DNA of 64,000 bases, taken from positions 22,849,822 to 22,913,821 of the forward strand of contig NC_134516.1 in NCBI RefSeq assembly GCF_027942865.1. The letters run 5' to 3'. The position numbers and the translations under genes were made by a program. The notes under the pieces are model-generated. The model made no database searches and was not told the origin of the DNA. It was given only the letters and a program-made list of their open reading frames with translations. The stretch comes from Odontesthes bonariensis. Its lineage: Eukaryota > Chordata > Actinopteri > Atheriniformes > Atherinopsidae. Shown here piece after piece: positions 3,001 through 20,908 of this stretch (position 1 is the stretch's first letter; each line of letters starts with the position of its first letter).

Positions 3001-5239
3001 AGTCAGATGACAAAATAATTATTATATTTCAGTGAATTTATCTTTGTTTCAAGTGCAACACTCACTGTTCAGTTTTGTCATAAGGAGCTGCACCACAATG
3101 CATTTTACTGACATATGAATGACAGGTCATGTGACTGCCTTTTACCTGAGAAATCTTATGTTCTAATAATATTAGTTTAAATTAATTGAATAATACTTTA
3201 TTAATCCTAAGATGGTAGTTAATCAAGATTAGTTATCATAGAACAGCAATTGTAATTCTGTCCCACCAAAGGCCCATATGTGATTTGCTTTGTCTCTATA
3301 ACATTACCAAACAGTTTTCTCAACAGTAGTGCAGTTTTGAGCTTATCTAATGTTAAAACAACACTTATTCAAACATATAGATGTGAAATACCTATGACAG
3401 ATCAGATATCAATGAAGCTTTTGTACAAAAAGTCAAAAGAGTCTCACAATCTTGTACTTTCATAACATTCTTCACTCTGTGGGCATTCAGATGGCTGCAG
3501 ATTTCCTCTGGATTTAATCAAATCAGTACAACAAACCCCAAATCAGATCATACCACAGCTGTTTCAAACTCACTGAGAGTAAGATTGCAGTTTTTCTGTT
3601 TTATCAACAGTGTTATGATGTTCAGAAGCAGCCATGGTCACGTTATTGCCTCTGTGGCCATCTCTGGGGGTTGTGGATTTGGCAGAAGCTGGATTAAAGT
3701 ATTTGGAGGTCAAACACATCAACCTCACGGCATTTGCAGCAGGGCAATGGAGGGCATGAGGAGCCGGTTACAGCCATCAAAGACTCCACCACTGGCGGTG
3801 GAGTCGACCCCCACATCCCCACAACCTGTGACTGTAATAGAAGACAGTTTAACCTGTGCTGTGGAGACTGAACACATTTTATTCAACAATTTGTTTTGTT
3901 AATCTGCATAATATTAGTCTGTGGAAGCAACAAGTAATGCCATGATGTGAGAGGGCCCCTAGTGGTCTAAATAAGAATATTGTAAGAGGAGAAGTGCTTC
4001 ATGTGTTGCGGGACAAACAAGAGAAATATGAAAGTTAGGGTTTTCATCTTAAACGGCGAGGGCAAGCTGCATTGTTGTGCATGTGTCTGTGGGTGTCAAT
4101 GTAGAACGGCGCTGCTAGTTTTCCAGTCCATTGTACCCACTGTGTATACACAGGTTAGTGCTGCAGCTCTGACAATAACCCTCTGCTTTAGACTATCTGC
4201 CTTCGCATCTGTGACACACTGAGGAGCCACAGACGTTCAGAGCGGTTTCTTTACTCTCTGTTATCTCTGACATGCACACTGTCTCCTTCTCCATCTCTCC
4301 TGTGCTTCCATACCACTCCACACTCATGGCCTCCGTGGCCCCCTTCACCTCCTTCCCCTGTGCCTCTCGGTCTATCTTAGACTGAAGTGAGGTTTCAGTT
4401 CAGTTACAGTGGAGAAGAGCTCCTTTGTGTTTGTCGAGAGCTGTCAGACAGGAGATCTTATCCCCTGTGCTGTTCTCTTCTCAGCAGGAAAGGTGACGGA
4501 GCCGCTTTCGGCAGGCAGCAAGGGTCCGACAGTTCAAACTTGACCTTAAAGAGACGATGTCAAGCTCAGTACTGTGAGCGTGTTGGAAGTCTTTTTTTAA
4601 TGGAGAGCTATGCAAACAGCACTCAATCTTGAGGTTGTTGACTCTGTTCTCAGAGGCTGTTAACCCTGTTCAATGCCTTCTATCAAAGTGTTTAAATGAC
4701 TGAATCACAGAAAATGTGTCATCCGCTTCCTTTCCAATTCTCACCGAAAAATATAAATATGAAGTGTTGCGTCCCTGTATGTATATCAGTTACAACGGAA
4801 AATGCAGTTCCTTGTTCAAAGTATATGCTTGCCAGACCTAAACCTGTATACCGTGTGAAAAGACTGCAAACTCCTTTGCCAATCCAAACCCACAATAGAT
4901 CATGGGTGATTTGTAAGTATCGGATGTAACAAAGGTCAATCTGCCAATGGGCTTTCGGTAAGTTACGAGCTCACAAAGCCCAGTCTTTCAGTGAATACTA
5001 CAATGAGCAGAGTTGAAACCTTTATTGATCAGCTTCAGTACTAATAAGATTGGATGTAGCCCTCCAAACCCCACAGATATTCTTCTCTCTCTAAATCAAC
5101 AGATTAGATTGGCATATACATTCGTCTTATCCCCGCCTGTTACCATTCAAATGTGTCGGGCAGCCTGCGGCAAACAAAGAAAGGAGAATGAGAGAATAGG
5201 TAGGATTGAGCACAAGAAAAGACGCACCTAAAGGATTTA
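1..5239. other. Gene-free left flank
   Basis: No exon chain is recognisable here on either strand. Open frames of up to about 120 codons exist (for example 489-845 and 3585-3902) but they have no recognisable domain, no consistent splice partners and no similarity I know. The stretch is AT-rich, with A-rich runs around 1250-1560. A short box near 1009-1021 resembles a tRNA-type B box (GGGTCGAATCCTGG) and may be the relic of a SINE, but no A box or cloverleaf is seen. A small perfect stem (CTCCACC/GGTGGAG) lies at 3784-3803. A CTCF-like core lies at 3951-3969 and is listed separately. Confidence 0.6.
3951..3969 (-). promoter_or_regulatory. CTCF-like core motif
   Basis: On the minus strand the sequence reads CCACTAGGGGCC, which matches the vertebrate CTCF core CCASYAGRKGGC with one mismatch. 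This is a motif match only; occupancy cannot be judged from sequence. Confidence 0.25.
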
Positions 5240-6090
5240 TAGGGGTCCAGCTGAGGCTGTATGTGGAGGTCCCCACAAAAGGGGAGAGAGATGAGGTTTG
5301 TGATGGGCAGGCCGTCACATCCACTGGGGGACAAAAGAGTGGGGTGACAAGCAGCCGATGGACAGAAGGTCCATTTCCACTCACACAAAAGAACCGGGAA
5401 GATGAAGCAGATTAGCAGCTCTTTATTCCCATTGTGAAGGCTCTAAATGATAAGATTTAGCCCTTTTTCTATCCTTGCCTGTGTCCTGTGTGTGTGTATG
5501 TGTGAGGCAGAGAGAGCGTAAGCTCACACAAGACATCACAAGCTCTTTCATTCTGCCTTTTTTTTTGGCTTTCTATTGTACACTACATCAGGATATGCTT
5601 CACGTTATTTCTTCTCTTCCGTGCAGGTTCATACGCAGACACACGAATGCACTTTTTCTGACGAGTAATTTATTCATCCTCAGAGAAAAGAGAAGATTTG
5701 ACAGATGGTTTTGAAGTCACTTCCCTTCTTTTTTCACTAAACCATGAATTTAAAGTTCAAATGGAGAGGCTCTTATAGCTTAAACCCCCTCATCATCGCA
5801 AGATGATGTTTTTGTGAGTTGTTGAGTAGGAAATTACCCCATCTACCTTCTACTTCTACCCATTGCTACTGGACAATAACGTCAGTCAGTCAGTCAGAAG
5901 CTTTTATGTGGTTTTCAGATGACACACTGTTATTATGTGACATGTCCAGGAGCTGTGTTACCACCTGCATTTATGGTCATCGAGATCTTACAAGAGCTCA
6001 TTCAAAAGATTATGTTGTATAAATTAGTTCCCTCTGATCATGTCTTTGTATTTAGTGCCATCTACTGATTATCTTCCAATATTACATGGC
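5240..6090 (+). repeat. Direct repeat block A, copy 1 (diverged)
   Basis: This block is repeated in the same orientation at about 7677-8400. Matching stretches occur in the same order: a 'gggagagagatg' segment, 'cagccgatggaca' with 'aaggtccatttcc', 'attcccattgtga', 'gataagattta' followed by cccttt, and at the end 'gccatctactgat'. Between these anchors the copies have drifted and differ by many indels, so the duplication is old. No coding frame is shared by the copies, and I do not recognise the block as a known transposon. Its placement relative to the broken ABCB6 copy suggests it is the upstream flank of a tandemly duplicated ABCB6 unit. Confidence 0.65.
6055..6070 (-). promoter_or_regulatory. 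CTCF-like core at end of repeat block A1
   Basis: The minus strand reads TCAGTAGATGGCAC, one mismatch from the CTCF core CCASYAGRKGGC. The same core is kept at the matching place in the second copy of the block (8361-8375). Confidence 0.3.
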
Positions 6091-6339
6091 CTTGTTGTAA
6101 TGGTTTATCTCAAGATTTCAAACAGTCCAGATTATAAATAGCATAAACAAAAGATGAGTTGCTAAAAGTTCAAGCGATTTTAAAATATGTATTTCAGCTC
6201 TAAATCAAGTGATCTGACAAAAATAATCAATCAATGATCAAGAAATCATTTTCATGAAATACAGTCATTCGTATTTGTAATTAAATTTCACAAGCTCAAA
6301 TTAAAACATATAATGATTAGTTTTAATACTGGATGGAAA

Positions 6340-6640
6340 TAATTTGCGGTCAATGACTGTGTGACCTGTGGGTGTTGAGTTTAATCCCTTGAGTTCTTTG
6401 CAGGCCTTTCCTCTTTCCACCTTTAGTTGACCCAGTAAGTCAAAAAGCACACCCTGTTGGGTTGAGGTCAGGTGACTGACTCGGCCATTTAAGACATTTT
6501 TATTTATTCGCCTTAAGGACTTCTTGAATCATTTTTGTGGTATGTTTTTGGTCAGTCCACCAAGAACCCACCATCTGCTCCCATAGATCTGTGGCACAAC
6601 TCACTTCACATATGTATGTTCCCTGCATTAGTTATATGGT
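6340..6640 (-). mobile_element. Tc1/mariner DNA transposon fragment, decayed
   Basis: Read on the minus strand, 6452-6490 encodes KWPSQSPDLNPTG, the conserved block near the last catalytic acidic residue of Tc1-type transposases (usual form WPSQSPDLNPIE). The flanking minus-strand sequence continues the family pattern, with a DxPKxxxK-like stretch upstream and CAF followed by a lysine-rich stretch downstream, but stops interrupt it (one follows CAF directly). No terminal inverted repeats are apparent, so only an internal piece of the transposase region survives. It lies between repeat block A1 and the ABCB6 relic. Confidence 0.7.
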
Positions 6641-7189
6641 GCACTGAGGTCAACACTCATCGCTTTTGTGCTGCTGTCGGGGTTTAATGTTTAATATCTG
6701 TATTTACTTTACAACACAGTTCCTATTGCTAAGGCTAACTGCCTCTTTGTGAAGCAACAAATACCTTAACCGGCACGTTTTTTTTGCAGAATGGTCCTGT
6801 ATCTCTTACATTCACTGCCTATCTCTTTGCACCATTGTCTGCTGACGGACAATTATAACACTGTTTACATCATTATGTGCTATCCATACTGTTATTTAAA
6901 CTGTTTATAGCTTCACTGGTTCTTGTTACTCTTCCATGTTGTAGTTAATTGTGAATAATTATTTAACCCTATTGGACTTTGATCATACTGGTTGTGTCTT
7001 TATTGCTTCATTTATTATTTATTTTATCTTATCTGTTGCTCTAATATGTATTGTATCATGGCATCCAAGCTGTGCTAGCGCAAGACGGTTTTGCAAAAAC
7101 AATACAGATATCAATGTATATTAGAACTTGCAAGTAATACAATGTTGTCCTTAATATTTCTGTTTGTAACTGTGTGTGTTTACAGAAAG
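6641..7189. other. Spacer between Tc1 relic and ABCB6 relic
   Basis: No gene is recognised. The stretch is AT-rich. If the upstream ABCB6 copy was once whole, its body should have lain in this interval; no exon similarity is visible here, so most of it appears to have been deleted or replaced. Confidence 0.5.
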
Positions 7190-7620
7190 TCTGTAGTTAT
7201 TTATTTGTCTTCATTGGATTTTTTCAGGTAAAGCAAACATCTCTGAAAGCTTTTATAGCAGTCCTGAAAAGATTGCGGCTATTATGATGAGTTTTACAAC
7301 AGAATCTCTCTGTGGAGTACATCTGCTCTGGAGACACAAAACACAAATGATTTTTCATCGTCTTCGGAGCAGAAATTATTCTGATTGTCAGCGAGGGCTG
7401 GATTGCTGAATGAGGATAGAAAGTGCTTCTTCTTGACTAGTTCTGAAAGACTCACATATGTATACATCACACCTTTGTGTTCATTGAACTGTGAGTAAAT
7501 GTCACTTTCTCCATGCAAAATGAAAATGTGAAAATAGCTTTTTTTTTTCACAATAAAGCAGACTGTGGAAAGACAGGTCATGGAGAAGAGGAATGGTGCC
7601 GTAATAAAATTGAGCAGGTA
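7190..7620 (+). pseudogene. Decayed partial duplicate of ABCB6 3' end
   Basis: The sequence matches the intact ABCB6 downstream at several points in order. An intron-acceptor-like tract and 18 identical bases at 7228-7245 match the start of ABCB6 exon 15 (VKQTSL). A 'ctctctgt' acceptor tract followed by TSALETQ-like sequence near 7318-7340 matches exon 17 (TSALDTQ). Bases 7357-7414 read IVFGAEIILIVSEGWIAE, then a stop, against [19 protein letters not shown] of exon 18. Bases 7571-7617 match the ABCB6 3' UTR at 16797-16838. Much of exons 15-16 and all of the H-loop region are missing, and frames are broken. Intron-edge sequence is retained, so this came from DNA duplication, not from a retrocopy. 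Confidence 0.85.
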
Positions 7621-7676
7621 CAGTATTAACACTAACAATGTTGTGCGACTCTATACAATTAATTACACACGTAAAG

Positions 7677-8400
7677 GGTTTCAGATGAGGCTATATATGG
7701 GAGAGTCCTCTCAAAGGAGAGAGAGATGGAGTTTGTGACGGGCAGACCATGACATCCTGGGGGGTAAAGAGTGTGGAGTGACAAGTGGCCGATGGACACA
7801 AAGTCCATTTCCTTTTCGCAAAAAAATGCGGAGATGAGGCCAATGAGCAGCTATTTATGCCCATTGTGATGATAAGATTTATCCCTTTATCCGTCCCAGT
7901 TTCTGAATCTCAGTCTCTTCTGTATGTTTTTTCTTTCTTTTTGAAAACTGCATCTGGATTTCCTCTGCTTTTTCTACTTTCATATGCAGCTGCAGGCACT
8001 TTTATTGAAGAGTCCTTTATTTATCCTAACGGGAAAGAGAGATTCTTCTTACCAAACTAAATGTGCAGTTTGATGAGGAAAACATTCAACTCAAAGATGC
8101 AAATGTGCTTTATGGGAGGAGAGACACCCCTATCTACTCTACGATATTGTTAATCCTGCACTCAGTGGTATCAGTAGCTATTAATAGATATACTGTTATT
8201 AATAATGTACCTCAAATTGTAATTGTGTGTGGGGTTTTTTCAACAAGAAGTTTTTTTCCTCACCACCTGCAATTAGTCAAATGGAGGATGTATTGTCTCT
8301 TCTTCTTACACTTTCTCATGGCATTCGCTTCTCTCCTCAGACTAGATCTCGTGTTTATATTGCCATCTACTGATCATCTTGCAAAATTTCAAGCTATAAC
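7677..8400 (+). repeat. Direct repeat block A, copy 2 (diverged)
   Basis: Second copy of the block seen at 5240-6090, in the same orientation and with anchors in the same order. It begins immediately after the last similarity to the ABCB6 3' UTR in the relic and ends about 300 bp before the ABCB6 promoter region. This order (A, broken ABCB6, A, whole ABCB6) is what a head-to-tail duplication of an 'A + ABCB6' unit would leave. Function, if any, is unknown. Confidence 0.65.
8361..8375 (-). promoter_or_regulatory. CTCF-like core at end of repeat block A2
   Basis: The minus strand reads TCAGTAGATGGCA, one mismatch from the CTCF core. It is the counterpart of the motif at 6055-6070 in the first copy of the block. 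Confidence 0.3.
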
Positions 8401-8539
8401 TTGACCGAGATGATCAGTGCTTTCATACAACCCTTAGTAGAATTACATAGAGTTTTGGAGTAATTCAAAGTCACGCGAATATATCCATGTGTGTCTAATA
8501 TTTCATGTTATTTCAGCCTTTTTTCCTTCCCCGTCCCTG

Positions 8540-8933
8540 TTCAAAAGCCGATTAATCTGTTCCGTGTCCATCCTCTGGGGGGCGCTGAAGTCCACCGTAC
8601 GCGCTCAGACCCTGTTGCGTAAGCGTCGATTGCCGAGTCATGGATAGCTGTTGTTTAACACACACGCGACAAGGACGACCACTTTCGGAACATGAGTGCA
8701 CACAGTTTGTGGACAGCGCGATGACAGACGCGTAGTTATGTAGTTTTCTGTTCTCTTAGCAGCGTTAAACGTAACAATTGGTCATTTGTGTGAAAGAGGT
8801 GTCCTCCGGACAAAAAGCCGGCTAACAGCTAACAGAAGGCGGACTCTCGTTTTCCAGGAGTAACCTCTGCTGCTGAGCGCCTTCGTTATTTTGAAGTTGA
8901 GAGCAGCCTGTTTGTGTCTACCTGCCAAGTGAG
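8540..8933 (+). promoter_or_regulatory. abcb6: ABCB6 promoter and 5' untranslated exon
   Basis: A locally GC-richer stretch with many CpG steps lies just upstream of ABCB6. It includes a CTCF-like GGGGGGCGCTG element at 8576-8586. A donor-like GAG/GTAACA sits at 8931-8936, and the first coding exon has a good acceptor (cccccag) ending at 9312. I infer a non-coding first exon ending at 8933 and a 379-bp first intron. The exact transcription start is not visible; there is no clear TATA box. Confidence 0.5.
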
Positions 8934-9320
8934 GTAACAGTACCCTCAAATATGCGTTAACGGTGCGCAATTCTTGATGCGTCTTGTCCGTTAAGCTGCA
9001 CAATGTGTTGTAAATGAGCTATTAACCGGTGTGCACCTTGACTTTCGCGTGGGTTTCTCTGAACTGCACTGCACTGCCCTCACATTTTGATAATGTGTGC
9101 TATATTGGTGATGTGATGGGTTTTATATTTTTAGCAGCAAAGGGATGTTGAGCCTCTTAAATGACCGTGTGTAGCAGTGTGTTAGCCAGTTGTGCTTGTG
9201 TGGTGTTAAACTGAGGGATACTTGCTTTTCTCCCTTTTTAAAAAGCTGTTTTATTATTTGTGAATATACATTCTGCTGCTGCCCCTGTAGTAAAATCCTT
9301 TCTGTCCCCCAGTTGCAGCC

Positions 9321-12300
9321 ATGGTGTTCATGCGGAGCTACTGTGAATCAAATGCCTCCATCTCCCACACCTGGGTGGATGAAGGCATCTCCCCCTGCTT
9401 CTACTTTACACTGGTCCCCACCATCCTGCTCACCATCGCCTTTTTCCTCGGAGCCCTCCACCACATATGCTACCAGAAGTATGGCACCACAATGGAACCC
9501 AAGTACATCCCACGCTCCCGTCTCTATGGTTTCCAGCTGGCCATCTCAGTCCTGCTCCTGCTTCAGTTTCTGGGTGGGACGGTGTGGCAAGTTGCCACTG
9601 CAGGAGAGCTTCCGGGATATGTGGTGCTGTACGGCTCCTTTTCTGTGGCGGGATGGGCCTGGGCTTCAGCCACGCTCAGGGTGGAGAGACGGAGGGTCCT
9701 GCTGATGGACCGGACAAGGGGACACAGCACTGTCCTGCTGGTGTTCTGGGCCATAGCTTTCTCAGCTGAGAACTTAGCCTTTGTGTCCTGGTACAGTCCT
9801 CACTGGTGGTGGGGCCTGGAGGACACTCAGCAGCAGGTGAGGAAAGAATGAACGTCACATAAGATCTAGTTTTTGATCAAATCGAAAGAAAGTAGACCCA
9901 ATAATGCTTGTTTTTTTTGTTTCATCAATCTATAGCTTTTAAAACTGTGTAATGTCCATCAGCATTACTGATTTAGTTTTACCAGTGTTGATCCAGGAGT
10001 GTGCTTAGTCATTATGATAAAACTCCCAGCAGTGATATTCTAGTGAGTCAAAGGTTACTTATTTGTTTAGGATAAGTAGAGACACTCCTCTCTGAGCTAT
10101 GCAAACGGTCTAAAACATAAAGGATTATGTTTACACCCAAACAGCTCGAGATTTGTGTGGTTTTGGTTTGGTCTGTTTTTTTTTTTGTTTTTTTTTGCTG
10201 AGTCATTGCCATGTCAGACTTTCTCTTCCTAAACTCCACCCGGTTAGCCAATTAAAACACAAGAGAAAATCTTGCTCCTCCCACACTGAGTCAGAGCAGC
10301 AGGCTCCACTTTGTGTTTTCATACCTGCAAGCATGACTTGGCAGTTTGTTTGTTTTTTTCCTTTCTTTTATAAAGCTTTTGTCCAAAACTGAAAAAAGGG
10401 GTTTTATTATTGTTATTATTACTATTATTATACACCAGTGCCCTGCAAACTACATATCAGGCTTTTGCTTAATTCGATCCATCATTGCATTATGTCTGAA
10501 TTTTAGTGTAATTTGAATTAACAGCTTACCACTACCAGTTGATTTAACCAGGTCATTAAGGCTAGTTGGTTACTGTTACATAGCTGCGTTATGAGTATTG
10601 AATGGTCACATCTTCACTCCTGCACACTGTTTAACTTTGACGTGGAATCCATGTTGATCTGCTTGTAAATGTCTCTGAACCCGTCAGGTTAAGTTTGCTC
10701 TGTGGCTGATCCGCTACAGCGGCACCGGTCTGCTGTTCTTCATCGGTCTTAAAGCTCCGGGGCTGCCTCGAAGACCTTATATGCTTCTGATCAATGAAGA
10801 TGAGCGGGACGTGGAAAGCAGCGGACAGGTAGAGATGCTTACGTGGTCTTTGTGAGCTTAATAGTGAGTTGATCGTTGAAGATCGTTTCTTTGTGAGACA
10901 GATATTTTAAAAAAAGAAACATACAGATTTGTTTTTTTTAGAAACACTTCTGCACTTTTCTGGAAATGGGTTTTGGGTTTACTGGTGTATGTTTCTGTAC
11001 CTCAGAATCTATTGGGGAGAACAGAAGAGAACCTCTCCACCTGGCAGGATTTCAGGAAGAAGGTCCGCCTGCTTCTCCCGTACATGTGGCCTCGAGGCAA
11101 TATCATTCTCCAGCTTCTGGTCCTCTTCTGTTTGGTACTACTGGGAGTCGAGAGGGCTATTAATGTCTTTGTACCCATTTACTACAAAAATATCGGTATG
11201 TGAAGCGTCCTCTTTACCTTACCCTGCTGGCTCTTAATTTAAATGGCGTCTTTCCGTAGTGACATTGTTAAAACAAACCTGCGCCTCAGTTTAGTGGAGG
11301 TTAGATATGGTTTCATTTGTTCCTATGCTTGGCTGCGTGCCATTTTTCTTCTCTCATTTACCCTGATCTCTCTCCAAGTGAATGAACTGACTGATGGCAG
11401 CAGCTGGCGCACTCTGGCCACCACAGTGTGTATTTATGTGCTGCTCAAGTTCCTGCAGGGCGGAGGGGCAGGTAAACCTCACTCATTCATGTTCTGGACA
11501 CTATTATAAAGTGAGCTCTGTAGCATCGCATAAACAGCCCGAGACCTTACTTAACTCTTTGTTCTTCTCCTCCCAGGCGCGTCAGGGTTTGTCAGTAATA
11601 TGCGCTCCTTCTTCTGGATCCGTGTGCAGCAGTACACCAATCGGGTGGTTCAGGTTCGTCTGTTTGCCCACTTGCACTCGCTCTCTCTACGCTGGCATCT
11701 CGGCCGCAAAACCGGCGACGTGCTGAGAAGCATAGACCGTGGCACCTCCTCCATCAACAGTTTGCTCAGGTGAGACGTCACTGGCGTGGGTTTGTTGGTT
11801 ATAGATCTGATGATTCATTAATGGAAATGTCTTTATCAGAACCTTAGGTTTAGCAAATCAGTATGACTTAGCAGCACTAGGTTTTGTTTGGACACTGTGA
11901 CACTTTTCATTTGAGATGGAAGATGAAATTGACTCCTCTATCCGTGTTCTTTCACAGTTACCTTGTGTTCAGCATCTTTCCAACCATCGCTGATATTGTC
12001 ATTTCCATCATCTACTTCGTCACTTATTTCAATGCCTGGTTCGGCCTTATAATCTTCATCTGCATGACCCTCTACCTCAGTAAGTGGGGCATGCTTAACC
12101 AAAGCAACTTTATTGAATGACATTTTAATATGAATCGGACAATATTTAAGTGTGTAGAAGTTTTCTCACTGCTTGTCGATGTCCCTCAGCCCTGACCATC
12201 ATCATCACCGAATGGAGAACCAAGTACAGACGAGACATGAATCTGCAGGACAACAACGCCAAGTCCAAGGCTGTGGACTCCTTGTTGAACTTTGAGACGG

Positions 12301-15300
12301 TACATCAAACATTTTGCCTTTTGGTTGAGACTCGCAAAAAGAAAGTTAAAGATGCGAATGAGTCAAAGTCAAAGTTTGAACAATTGTTTTGCCTCTTAAC
12401 AGGTGAAATACTATAACGCAGAGAACTACGAGGTCAACCGTTTTGAGGATGCCATCTTGAAATACCAGGTAGGTCAGAGGTATTTATTAATCACAAGCAA
12501 AGCACAAGAGACGCTAGAGCTTTTTCTCCAACAAAATACTGAAAACACCCACTGAAAGAATGTTTTGTTGTAGTTTGACCGGAATCAGAACAGGTATGTT
12601 CAGACCGATGTCTCGTTAACGCTGCTGTCACAGCTCAGCTGAACAAGGTGCTGGCCAGACTATCCGCTCATATTTATGGCAGTTTCAGCTTCGAAACTAA
12701 GACGGAAAGAATAATGCTCAGAGTCGCTTTCATCATAGCAACACATGCCCGGTTTAACCCGGTTTAGTCGGTGGAGGTGAAAGCTGCTCAGAAGTTGGAA
12801 TAAAGAACTGGATTGTATCAGCTTAAGCATCAAGTCAAACTAGAAGAACAACAAAATTGTTGGAAACCAAATCTAAGCAGAGATTAAGGAGCTACCTTCT
12901 GCTTTTCATCCTCATATTGCTCTGATTTCACTTCTTGGGGAAAGTTTATAGGTTGTGTCCGTTAGCGTGCATTTAATGTTTATCGTCTCCTCTTATTTTA
13001 GGCTTCAGAGTGGAAGACTCAGGCATCGCTGGCCTTTCTCAATCAAACGCAGAACGTCATCATCGGCTCAGGGCTGCTGGCGGGCTCCTTGCTCTGCGCC
13101 TACTTTGTCACTGAAGGAAGGTTCAAGGTGCTGACACAGACATATTTCAACATCTAGACGCCATCTTTGAAAGCACTTGTCCTTTTTAATATAATATCTC
13201 GAAACAAGTTAACATTTCTTTATTTTTTACCGTATGTGAGGAATAACTGCGCTCAATTGACTTGTTCAGCGTGCCAGTGAATACTGCCCTCTCGTCTTAG
13301 GTTGGAGATTTTGTTCTCTTCGGCACATACATCATCCAGCTGTACACTCCTCTCAACTGGTTTGGAACTTACTACAGGTAAGACAAGGCTGAGGAAGCTT
13401 GAAGCTATTTCAAGCTTCAAGCGATTTCTCTGCAGACTAATACACTGCACACCTCTAATCGGTCACATATCATTAAGAGGCTTTTTTTTAGGAATATTTT
13501 GCTTAGTCTGCCTCATTATCAGTCATTATCGTCTAAATATTTGCTCACATGAGCATTTAAGCCTGAAGTGTTGTTACACACTTGATGTCTTCCCTTTCTT
13601 TCTGCAGAATGATCCAAAATTCTTTCATCGACATGGAAAGCATGTTCAAAATATTTGAGGAGGAAGAAGAGGTACATTTTAAAGTGTGAAGTATTTGCAG
13701 TTGTCGTTTCAGTGCTGTGCTTGGAGCTTTCTTCACATTCTGAATGTATCTGCTTCTGCAGGTGAAAGATGAAGTAAATGCTGGGAATCTGCTGTATAAA
13801 CTGGGAAGAGTGGAGTTTGAGAACGTTTACTTCAGCTACACAAATGGGTTTGTTCAACTTTGCTTTGATGCTTTTGGTAAAAAGCTGTGCACAAAGTTTC
13901 CCTGCTAATTGTGAGAGATGAGCAGCCTTTAAATTGTTTTGTTTTACAGCAAGGAGATTCTCAAGGATGTTTCCTTCACAGTTCTTCCAGGACAGACGAT
14001 TGCGCTGGTATGACAAATATTAGTTCGATTTTTACCCTTTCATTAGTGTTATATTAGGTGTACGCTGTATGATGATTATTTTCTGCTATTCTCCCCAAGG
14101 TGGGACCATCTGGATCGGGGAAAAGCACAATCATGCGACTGCTTTTCCGTTTCTATGATGTTCAGGGAGGCTGCATTCGCATTGATGGTCAGGATATCTC
14201 CAAAGTAAGTGTAGGGCACCACAGCAACTGCAAGAGATTATGGAAAAAGTCCAAATTAAATAGAAAATATAGTCAAAATCGCAAGGAATTCACATATGAG
14301 AAGTTTGTTACATAGTATTTAAGACTGAAGTGTACTTTTCATAATCTTTATGAATATTTTGATCCTTGACATTCAACTCTGTTACACAACATGATAAATC
14401 AAAGTAAGTTTAAGTCAAATTGACACATAGAATCAGTAACAGAATGATGTTATGTTGCTGCATGATATGCATCAGAAGCTGCTGTACATTAATTAAAGCA
14501 ATACTCCGGAGTAGATTCAACCTGGGGTCATTTGAACCGTGATATCCAGCCAAGTAGCCCACCCGCAGTTTTTTCGATATTGGCTGAACATCAGCTGAGT
14601 TACTGAGTTATCCCGAATAGCTTCGTACAAGGGTTAATGGAACCTGGCAGTATCTCCAAAATTACCACACTAAAATCACATGCCATGACACCAAACTTCT
14701 ACAGTAGTACAAATATGGTCTGTACTCACAAAACGATGCATTTGGAAGTTTGAAAATAGTCCAGGAGTTTATTATTATCAACACAAGCCTGATAGCCTTT
14801 CTGCTGCTAAAGCTGCGTCGACGTCACTTCCTTGATCTGGGAGCTTCAAAGTAAGATGAGGGTTGATCTACTACTGTAGACAACAAAGCAAGGCTGCTCA
14901 ATTTCTCCATTGATAAAATAATTTCCCAACTCTACAACATAAAAATTCATAAAAAAAACATGTAGAATATAGCATATACTTTGTTGTCTACAGTAGTAGA
15001 TCAACCCTCATCTTACTTTGAAGCTCCCAGATCAAGGAAGTGACGTCGACGCAGCTTTAGCAGCAGAGAAGCTATCAGGCTTGTGTTGATAATAATAAAC
15101 TCCTGGACTATTTTCAAACTTCCAAATGCATCGCTTTGTGAGTACAGACCATATTTGTACTACTGTAGAAGTTTGGTGTCATGGCATGTGATTTTAGTGT
15201 GGTAATTTTGGAGATACTGCCAGGTTCCATTAACCCTTGTACGAAGCTATTCGGGATAACTCAGTAACTCAGCTGATGTTCAGCCAATATCGAAAAAACT

Positions 15301-16654
15301 GCGGGTGGGCTACTTGGCTGGATGTCACGGTTCAAATGACCCCAGGTTGAATCTACTCCGGGGTATCGCTTTAATGTGCAGCTGAAGGCATCAGCCACTT
15401 GTGAGCGTAAGTTAGCCCCATTCTCTCAGGAATGCCAGGAGTAATAGATGCTGTTTTTACAGGCATTCTACAGTCATTACTTTGTCTCTCCTCAGGTAAA
15501 GCAAACATCTCTGCGAGCTCATATTGGCGTGGTTCCCCAGGATACTGTGCTCTTCAATGACACAATCAGGGATAACATCCGCTATGGTCGCATCTCAGCC
15601 AGTGACCAGGAGGTGGAGGAGGCTGCTGTAGCTGCAGATATACACGATAAAATCATGGCCTTCCCCGAAGGTAATCCCTCTTTTTTTATATATTCACCTT
15701 AAAGATTTGAACTTAATACAAAATGCCTCCCCTTTGTGATTTGTACTCAGTTGTACTCATCTAAAGAGAATGAATATATTCTAAACTGGACTGCGAAGCA
15801 CCGACCATCAGTTTTGAAATGAAGGTGGAGGGGCTGTGTCTTATCGCTGAATAATTGTAATTGTAGCCATTCACCTGTGTTTGTGTCTGTTAGGTTATGA
15901 TACACAGGTGGGCGAAAGGGGTCTGAAGCTTAGTGGAGGAGAGAAACAGAGGGTGGCCATCGCCAGAACTATCCTCAAAGCACCACAGATCATCCTTCTC
16001 GATGAGGTATCTGACGTATTGCACTATGAATGTGCACTGGGTCTTATGACTTTTATCTATGGGACAGCATTTAAAAGCTTAAAGTCCCTGCTGTTATTTG
16101 AAATCTGATAACCCAGTCTCTCTGTAGGCTACATCTGCGCTGGACACACAGACAGAGCGCAACATCCAGGCCTCTCTGGCTAAAGTCTGTGCCAATCGTA
16201 CAACAGTTGTTGTAGCCCACAGGTAACAGATCCCTGTGATTCTATTTATTTCCCCCCAAAAGGTTCAGTTTTGTTTAGTTTTTTTTTCCAACTGATGGGT
16301 CCATTTTGTGTACACAAAAGGCTGTCCACCATTATCGGAGCAGACCAGATTCTGGTTATCAGCGATGGCCGGGTCGCCGAGCGTGGACGGTAAGTGTGGC
16401 TTGTTGACCTGCCTCTCTAAATATTAAATATGTTGCACATTCTTCTGTTCTCTTAGCTGTAAGTAACACCCATCTATCTATCCATCCATCCAAGACACGA
16501 TGAGTTGATGCTCAAAGAAGGCCTGTACGCAGACATGTGGTCGAAGCAACAGCAGGGCCAGGACTCAGATTCCTCCTCAGATACCGAAGCTAAAGATCGC
16601 AAGTCTGAGAAACTGCAGCCACCGTCGACCTCATCAGGCCACCCTGGGCACTGA
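9321..16654 (+). CDS. abcb6: ATP-binding cassette sub-family B member 6
   Basis: Half-size ABC transporter linked to porphyrin/heme handling in mitochondria and endolysosomes. Nineteen coding exons join in phase to 852 codons (human about 842): 9321-9836, 10688-10828, 11006-11195, 11379-11471, 11577-11769, 11958-12079, 12190-12299, 12403-12468, 13002-13127, 13301-13377, 13608-13671, 13762-13847, 13950-14007, 14100-14204, 15496-15670, 15894-16006, 16128-16222, 16321-16389, 16495-16654. Exon 1 encodes the hydrophobic N-terminal TMD0 typical of ABCB6. Exons 3-10 encode the core membrane domain. Walker [10 protein letters not shown] is at about 616-624, signature LSGGEKQ at 720-726, Walker B IILLDE at 740-745, and the H-loop histidine at 776. 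All ATPase motifs are intact. The ATG at 9321 follows a cagcc context eight bases into the exon. Intron 14 carries a large fold-back element. Confidence 0.97.
14493..15374. mobile_element. Fold-back (long inverted repeat) element in ABCB6 intron 14
   Basis: Two arms of 396 bp each (14493-14888 and 14979-15374) are reverse complements with about six differences by eye, all transitions, and no indels. They enclose a 90-bp AT-rich spacer. Both outer ends read TTAAAGC, so TTAA lies at each border; this fits a TTAA target duplication of piggyBac type but could also be part of the inverted repeat. There is no coding capacity, so it is a non-autonomous element. The near-identity of the arms means recent insertion or recent arm homogenisation. 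In the pre-mRNA it would form a hairpin of nearly 400 bp between the Walker A exon and the next exon. Confidence 0.92.
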
Positions 16655-17815
16655 ATGTATTTATTATTATACAAACGGCCACATTTTTTTACTCCCCCTT
16701 TTTAGAAAGTTGATACTTTGTTTAAAAGTGACAGAACACTGAAAGAGGTGAGAAGGTGTTATTTATTTTTGGGATTTTCCAACTAAATGTGCAATGCCAG
16801 GTCATGGAGAAAAGGGACGGTGCCTTAAAAAGTGAGGTGGCGGAAACACTATGTGCAAATATCAACGTACACACTTGTTAAAATGTCTCGTAGCTCTGGT
16901 TGTACCAAAATTTTAATCTGGAGGATATTAGCAATAAATTCAAAGTGTTAGCTCAAGTAAAAAGACTGGTGACATCATAACTGCATTTAAATACAAAAGA
17001 ATGAGCAGGTTTTTAGATTTTAAGCTGAAAACATACTATTAGATGCTCCTCTATTGTTTATTTATGTTTTGTTATTTAGCATGAGAATTGGTTGATTTGT
17101 GTTACCCGTCATAAACAAAACTGGCTTTTTATTTTGCCCGGTGGAGCTTTAAATCGTCTGACTCAAAAGGGAATGCAAAAATGGAAAAAGAAATCAAATT
17201 CCAGCCTCGGTGCGTCGTGTTAAGTTGAGAAGCTGATGATTCTGTTTCCTACAGAACAATATATGAATGAGTCTGGAGTCTGTGTACAAGCTGTCAGGGA
17301 TTTAGTTTTTTTGTTTTTAAGCTTTTGGTTGTTTAATTTTGAGCTAAGCTGTTTTTTAAAGTGATACTGTTTTTAGGAGACGTGTGAGCATTTGTTCACA
17401 CTTCAAACGTTAAGTTAAGGTGAAATGATTGTCTGATAATGTCAATTATATAGTCAATAACCTGTACATATAAAGTCATAAATGCTGTTTTTGACATATA
17501 TTTATGGAGTTGTACAATCCATGTCTATCTGCCATTGGCAGTTAAACTTAAGACTTTTCACTTGGCTGACAGCTTTTTGCTCAACTGACTATTCAAAATG
17601 TCTGTACTGAAAATACATACTATTATACTTAATCGTCCACACAGTAAGAATACTCTTACTTAATATGTGCTATGTAAGTGTACAGTATACAGTCATACCC
17701 AGCATTGCTGTATATCATTTGCTGTCTTATGTCTACCTCACAGAAGGTGTCCATTATATAACTGTGTAAATACTCAGATTTGTCTTGCAATTTCGGAATA
17801 AACAAAAGTTTTTTT
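16655..17815 (+). promoter_or_regulatory. abcb6: ABCB6 3' UTR with polyadenylation signal
   Basis: AT-rich non-coding sequence follows the ABCB6 stop. A canonical AATAAA lies at 17797-17802; an earlier one near 16934 could give a shorter transcript. Bases 16797-16838 are the segment also present in the upstream ABCB6 relic. The next gene starts only about 370 bp past the distal signal. Confidence 0.6.
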
Positions 17816-17999
17816 CACATGTTTTCAGGCTATAAAATCAATAGCTAACCCTCTCCGATGCAGTTATTTAAAGACGCTGTAAACTTTAATAATTTAAAAT
17901 TTAAAAAATCTGAAGCTTTTCATCAATGAAAACCCCATAACTTTAATATTTGCATGCAGAAGTTGGAGCTTCTTGTACTTGTGAAACTTGTGTAACAGC

Positions 18000-18169
18000 G
18001 CGCCACCCTGCACGTGTATGTGTCTGGAAAAGGAAGTAAACAGCTGGAGGATTCGTCGTCACTGACTGTCCCCGCTTAGGGTGTGTTTCAAGCTGAGCTT
18101 CACCGAACAGGCGGGGGCAGGCCGGGCAGACGTCTTTTTCCATATTCGGTGGACTAATGCGCAGTAGAT
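18000..18169 (+). promoter_or_regulatory. cnppd1: CNPPD1 promoter / 5' UTR
   Basis: A short CpG-richer, GC-richer stretch directly upstream of the CNPPD1 start codon, contrasting with AT-rich sequence on both sides. No TATA box is obvious. The promoter must be compact, because the ABCB6 poly(A) signal is only about 370 bp upstream of the CNPPD1 ATG. Confidence 0.45.

Positions 18170-20908
<2,739 letters not shown>

Follow-up and report, generated by a model that had tools for sequence, protein, structure and literature searches.

A head-to-tail tandem duplication at the ABCB6 locus of Odontesthes bonariensis with a nearly erased upstream copy

The intact ABCB6 gene and the two units

The window, which is the whole stretch of 64,000 nucleotides analysed here (C16:22849822-22913821 in the 945-Mb, 187-contig assembly that was searched), contains an intact-looking ABCB6 gene and, upstream of it, the features listed in Table 1. 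In the ABCB6 model (9321-16654), all 18 introns have GT-AG borders and the frame is open with no stop. The 852-aa protein has the Pfam domains MTABC_N (the N-terminal five-TM region), ABC_membrane and ABC_tran. Its closest solved structure in the PDB is the ABCB6 chain 8fwk (1151.8 bits), which, like other such ABCB6 chains, we take to be the human protein.

Intron 14 of this gene harbors a palindromic element that is presumably transposable and does not belong to the duplication. The ends of the palindrome read TTAAAGC...GCTTTAA, as would fit a TTAA-target element, and near the ABCB6-like gene on C17 that is described below there is a related copy of it (94-96% in pieces; stretch L030).

Table 1. 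Features of the ABCB6 locus, in window positions, with their counterparts in unit 2
Feature	Position	Strand	Counterpart or description	Support
Block A, start of unit 1, copy of ABCB6 upstream sequence	5212..5485	+	7655-7903 (Smith-Waterman); blastn pair 5238-5474 with 7672-7896	Smith-Waterman 237
Block A continuation, unit 1	5535..5698	+	7907-8044	E 1.6e-6
Last clear upstream homology, unit 1	6031..6086	+	8335-8391	E 1.2e-5
No detectable ABCB6 homology	6214..7174	.	Expected place of promoter and exons 1-14	Local alignment
Tc1/mariner-like transposase scrap	about 6420-6620	-		Pfam DDE_3, weak
Relic: intron 14 end, acceptor, exon 15 start	7175..7256	+	15452-15524	E 6e-7
Relic: intron 16 end, exon 17 start	7278..7338	+	16090-16150	E 1.2e-5
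Relic: intron 17 end, exon 18, part of intron 18	7341..7498	+	16312-16466	E 1.6e-12
Relic: ABCB6 3' UTR	7453..7634	+	16680-16851 (Smith-Waterman); blastn pair 7453-7614 with 16680-16836	Smith-Waterman 82
Head-to-tail junction between units	7615..7671	.	3' UTR match ends, A' begins
Block A' and continuation, upstream region of intact ABCB6 (unit 2)	7655..8391	+		Smith-Waterman, blastn
ABCB6 (abcb6a), intact-looking	9321..16654	+	19 coding exons, 852 aa, ATG to stop
Palindromic element, intron 14 of intact ABCB6	14492..15375	.	397-nt arms, 98% complementary, 90 nt between

Sensitive blastn of 4900-7700 against 7600-17900, with the extra row from the 7600-7700 overlap of query and subject excluded, gave seven same-strand, collinear blocks between unit 1 (about 5212-7634) and unit 2 (about 7655-16851), with E values from 1.3e-39 to 1.2e-5. 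Three of the blocks lie upstream of ABCB6 and are followed by pieces of exons 15, 17 and 18 and then by the 3' UTR block, which overlaps the exon 18 block by 46 bases in unit 1. A reversed-sequence control produced no match at E 0.05, and none of the 16 control segments (2.8 kb each, downstream of 18500) had one at E 1e-3. When Smith-Waterman scores were tested against 300 dinucleotide shuffles per comparison, no shuffle equalled the real alignment for A/A', for the upstream stretch beyond it, for exons 15, 17 and 18 or for the UTR; the maximum among the A/A' shuffles was 43. When 4000-20000 was searched against the window at E 1e-3, only the intron 14 palindrome and the A/A' and relic/ABCB6 matches came up. 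There was no third unit at E 1e-3 in the 9,822 bases adjoining the window upstream, and no RNA family at E 0.1 in 5000-9400. The order proposed in the initial annotation, namely block A, ABCB6 3' relic, block A' and whole ABCB6, was reproduced by self-comparison of the region.

Conservation is uneven along the upstream alignment. The first five bins (5212-5508) had an identity of 0.79-0.86 and the later ones mostly 0.59-0.77, with one 26-column bin at 0.92. Block A was identical at 200 of 246 aligned sites versus 393 of 562 at later upstream sites, and this difference (Fisher p 0.0007) has to be read with the fact that block A was singled out because it is well kept. Part of the contrast is an alignment effect, because shuffled sequence reaches an identity of 0.62-0.69 in the same gapped alignment. 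For the same reason the K2P distance of 0.385 for 5540-6213 is unreliable; among the other distances, the exon 15 piece has the lowest K2P value (0.16) and exon 18 plus intron 18 the highest (0.45). It is quite improbable that block A is better preserved than the rest of unit 1 because it serves the surviving ABCB6 as a backup regulatory element.

The ABCB6 relic and the unit junction

All four relic pieces scored well above their best shuffle in Smith-Waterman alignment: 57 versus 33 at the exon 15 edge, 57 versus 31 at the exon 17 edge, 79 versus 35 for exon 18 plus intron 18, and 82 versus 42 for the 3' UTR. Together with blastn E values of at most 1.2e-5, these scores uphold the significance of the ABCB6-like matches, on which the initial annotation had made its reading depend. 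That annotation had called for alignment of the relic with exons 15-19 and the 3' UTR; pieces of exons 15, 17 and 18 and of the UTR are indeed present, whereas exon 16 was not found (score 19; 199 of 300 shuffles as good) and exon 19 was not detected by alignment to the parent. A tblastn search of the window with the ABCB6 protein at E 1 placed all 15 rows within 9300-16700 and none outside, and the relic is therefore visible at the DNA level only. In the whole genome, 7190-7620 matched only itself at E 0.001, a search for which the relic/parent matches are too short.

Several defects are visible in the relic. The intron 14 end retains its CAG acceptor, but exon 18 is interrupted by an in-frame TGA and neither of its splice sites survives: the acceptor AAG has become ATG and the donor GT has become GA. 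In exon 17 the homology breaks off at ACACA and resumes at another ACACA where intron 17 ends, as if the DNA between two short repeats had been deleted. To polarise residue changes, the 8fwk chain was used as the outside reference at 33 residues in two ungapped stretches (11 in exon 15 and 22 in exon 18). Twelve of the 14 polarised changes fell on the relic and two on the parent (p 0.013), as expected for a dead copy. In exon 18, codon positions 1, 2 and 3 differ at 10, 4 and 10 of 23 sites (Fisher p 0.036 for position 2 versus the rest). The smaller number of changes at position 2 is a weak hint of some constraint, in the relic or in the parent.

The relic UTR match ends at 7614 by blastn or 7634 by Smith-Waterman, and A' starts at 7672 or 7655, respectively. 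The resulting interval agrees with the junction at 7620-7677 that had been predicted beforehand. The sequence upstream of A did not match that upstream of A' (score 27; 19 of 100 random sequences as good), nor did the UTR beyond 16851 match the sequence beyond 7635 (score 23; 27 of 100 random sequences as good). Such unmatched outer flanks are what one head-to-tail junction at this place predicts. The AATAAA motifs of the parent, at 16933 and 17797, lie past the detected copied part. Because homology stops before them, the upstream copy may have been born without a normal 3' end and perhaps never functioned well, although the AATAAA motifs at 7552 and 7603 in the relic weaken this idea.

Between the kept ends of unit 1, no trace of exons 1-14 was found in 6200-7200 by alignment to 8500-15470 (best score 51; random maximum 60; 7 of 100 as good), and the promoter part alone likewise gave no match there (score 31; 62 of 100 as good); the 100 random sequences in these tests were matched in dinucleotide makeup. 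The transposase scrap in this stretch matched Pfam DDE_3 at E 0.0056 with 17 bits, below the curated cut-off of 28.6, and it contains a WPSQSPDLNP motif that we take to be typical of Tc1/mariner transposases. A weak inverted repeat at 6691-7114 (30 nt, 77%, 364 nt between the arms), inside the dead copy, may mark an old mobile element.

ABCB6 genes elsewhere in the genome and in other fish

A search of the genome with the ABCB6 protein gave 59 matches at E 1e-5, many of which were other ABC genes. Among them was a second, diverged ABCB6-like gene at C17:37994419-38041586, about 47 kb long (stretches L026, L028, L029 and L025), the pieces of which match residues 230-780. In the 73.7 kb fetched around this paralogue, no counterpart of the N-terminal exons (1-2) or of exons 18-19 was found at E 1. 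The counterpart of exon 5 lies in two parts (residues 314-340 and 340-377; L026:6788-8654), and the roughly 1.7 kb between them appears to be an extra intron or an insertion relative to the C16 gene.

The C17 paralogue was rejected as the source of the relic. Unit 1 had no match in eight C17 stretches at E 1e-3, and the relic (7150-7660) had none in L025 or L026 at E 1, unlike parent exons 15 and 17, which do match these two stretches; with C17 exons 18-19 not found, this comparison is effective for the exon 15 and 17 pieces alone.

A second teleost ABCB6 (ABCB6-2 or abcb6b) appears in PMC3655950, PMC9354906, PMC11574312, PMC4458048, PMC4825979 and PMC4607974. According to Liu et al. 2013 (PMC3655950), there are two ABCB6 genes in catfish, zebrafish, fugu, stickleback, Tetraodon and tilapia and one in medaka and cod, and the pair is ascribed to the fish-specific genome duplication. 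The ABCB6 counts seen in tables of PMC4825979 and PMC4607974 nowhere exceed two, and PMC4825979 has zero in one column. The published lengths in channel catfish are 660 aa for ABCB6-2 and 869 aa for ABCB6-1, and in striped catfish 650 and 852 aa, respectively. The shorter catfish ABCB6-2 would fit a C17-type gene without the N-terminal region, and we infer that the second ABCB6 published for fish is more likely to correspond to the C17 paralogue than to the relic. Because unit 1 is unmatched on C17 and the published counts are at most two, the relic is best seen as a third copy; the lost upstream gene was probably an extra tandem duplicate of the C16 gene and not the second ABCB6 of the surveys. 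Literature searches listed no article whose title concerned such an ABCB6 relic, which is weak evidence of absence.

Origin and decay of the upstream copy

A tandem duplication with a near-erased upstream copy is well supported. Head-to-tail duplication of the upstream region together with ABCB6, as initially proposed, is borne out by the strand, by the order and by the UTR match ending where A' begins, and these three features fit one head-to-tail duplication followed by deletion. We assign a probability of roughly 0.92 to the reading that the downstream ABCB6 was kept and that the upstream copy is a near-erased unprocessed (duplicated) pseudogene. The two units lie on one strand, in one order, with one junction of unit end to unit start. 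The relic has significant similarity to a parent that is still open, keeps intron edges and the gene flank (block A), and shows the TGA, the lost splice sites and no detectable exons 1-14, 16 and 19. According to this scenario, a segment from about 5212 to partway through the 3' UTR (about 16836-16851 in the parent) would have been duplicated head to tail. The downstream copy would have remained a working ABCB6, while the upstream copy, presumably complete at birth and shedding parts later, would have lost its reading frame and splice sites. Serial deletions would have taken exons 1-14, 16 and 19 and most of the intron sequence, and other sequence would have come to lie within the copy.

Origin as a retrocopy (processed pseudogene) of ABCB6 mRNA has next to no probability. 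Several relic introns are absent or short, as a retrocopy would have them, but the edges of introns 14, 16, 17 and 18 are present and the relic adjoins copied upstream sequence; a processed pseudogene would have neither introns nor upstream sequence. Because intron sequence adjoins exon sequence, the relic was copied from genomic DNA, in line with the earlier assertion that it was not made by retrotransposition. It is also very improbable that A and A' represent two insertions of a dispersed transposable element, with no connection to the ABCB6 pieces, a case that the initial annotation had raised against its own reading. Repeats do insert at this locus, as the intron 14 palindrome illustrates, but 5200-6220 matched only itself and A' in its own assembly at E up to 1, and the comparison of 4000-20000 revealed no further A in the window. 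Block A thus lacks the many genomic copies of a dispersed element, within the limits of a search that skips very common words and in which absence of a match is no proof of rarity.

The remaining alternatives accept a copied ABCB6 and concern its past. We consider it unlikely that the upstream copy was incomplete from the outset, with block A joined to the ABCB6 3' end by a single complex rearrangement that left out exons 1-14. The absence of any trace of these exons in the roughly 1 kb between the kept ends is the same picture that such an event would leave; however, the kept 3' part has separate gaps of its own (exon 16, exon 19, and a piece of exon 17 together with most of intron 17), which calls for further deletion, and homology upstream of the gene grows weaker in the direction of the promoter, a pattern that gradual decay would give. 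It is rather improbable, on what can be read from the relic, that the copy served for a long time as a functional second abcb6a and was lost in one lineage only, which would be the loss of a porphyrin-transporter paralogue envisaged in the initial annotation. The fewer changes at codon position 2 of exon 18 and the conservative nature of several replacements would fit such a past, but exon 18 first positions differ as often as third positions, the residue changes are concentrated on the relic, and each of the eight teleosts listed in PMC3655950 has at most two ABCB6 genes, one of them probably of the C17 type.

With duplication and subsequent decay as the preferred reading, the locus offers a clean example of how a duplicate transporter gene arose and died, its duplication junction still legible. 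To the one or two ABCB6 genes counted in fish surveys it adds a probable third, made in tandem. Annotated gene counts miss events of this type. A functional bearing would arise only if block A were a retained regulatory element or if a related fish kept an intact pair.

In kind, a decayed tandem copy of ABCB6 is a common, ordinary event. Like the second teleost ABCB6 (abcb6b), the relic represents a second ABCB6 copy in a fish, but the likely counterpart of abcb6b here is on C17 and shows no DNA-level match to unit 1. With duplicated (unprocessed) pseudogenes the upstream copy shares its adjacent, head-to-tail position, the intron edges, the copied flank, the broken frame and splice sites, and the open parent. 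It differs from other members of this class in that decay is far advanced, with three exon pieces and a UTR piece left, and is the same in kind.
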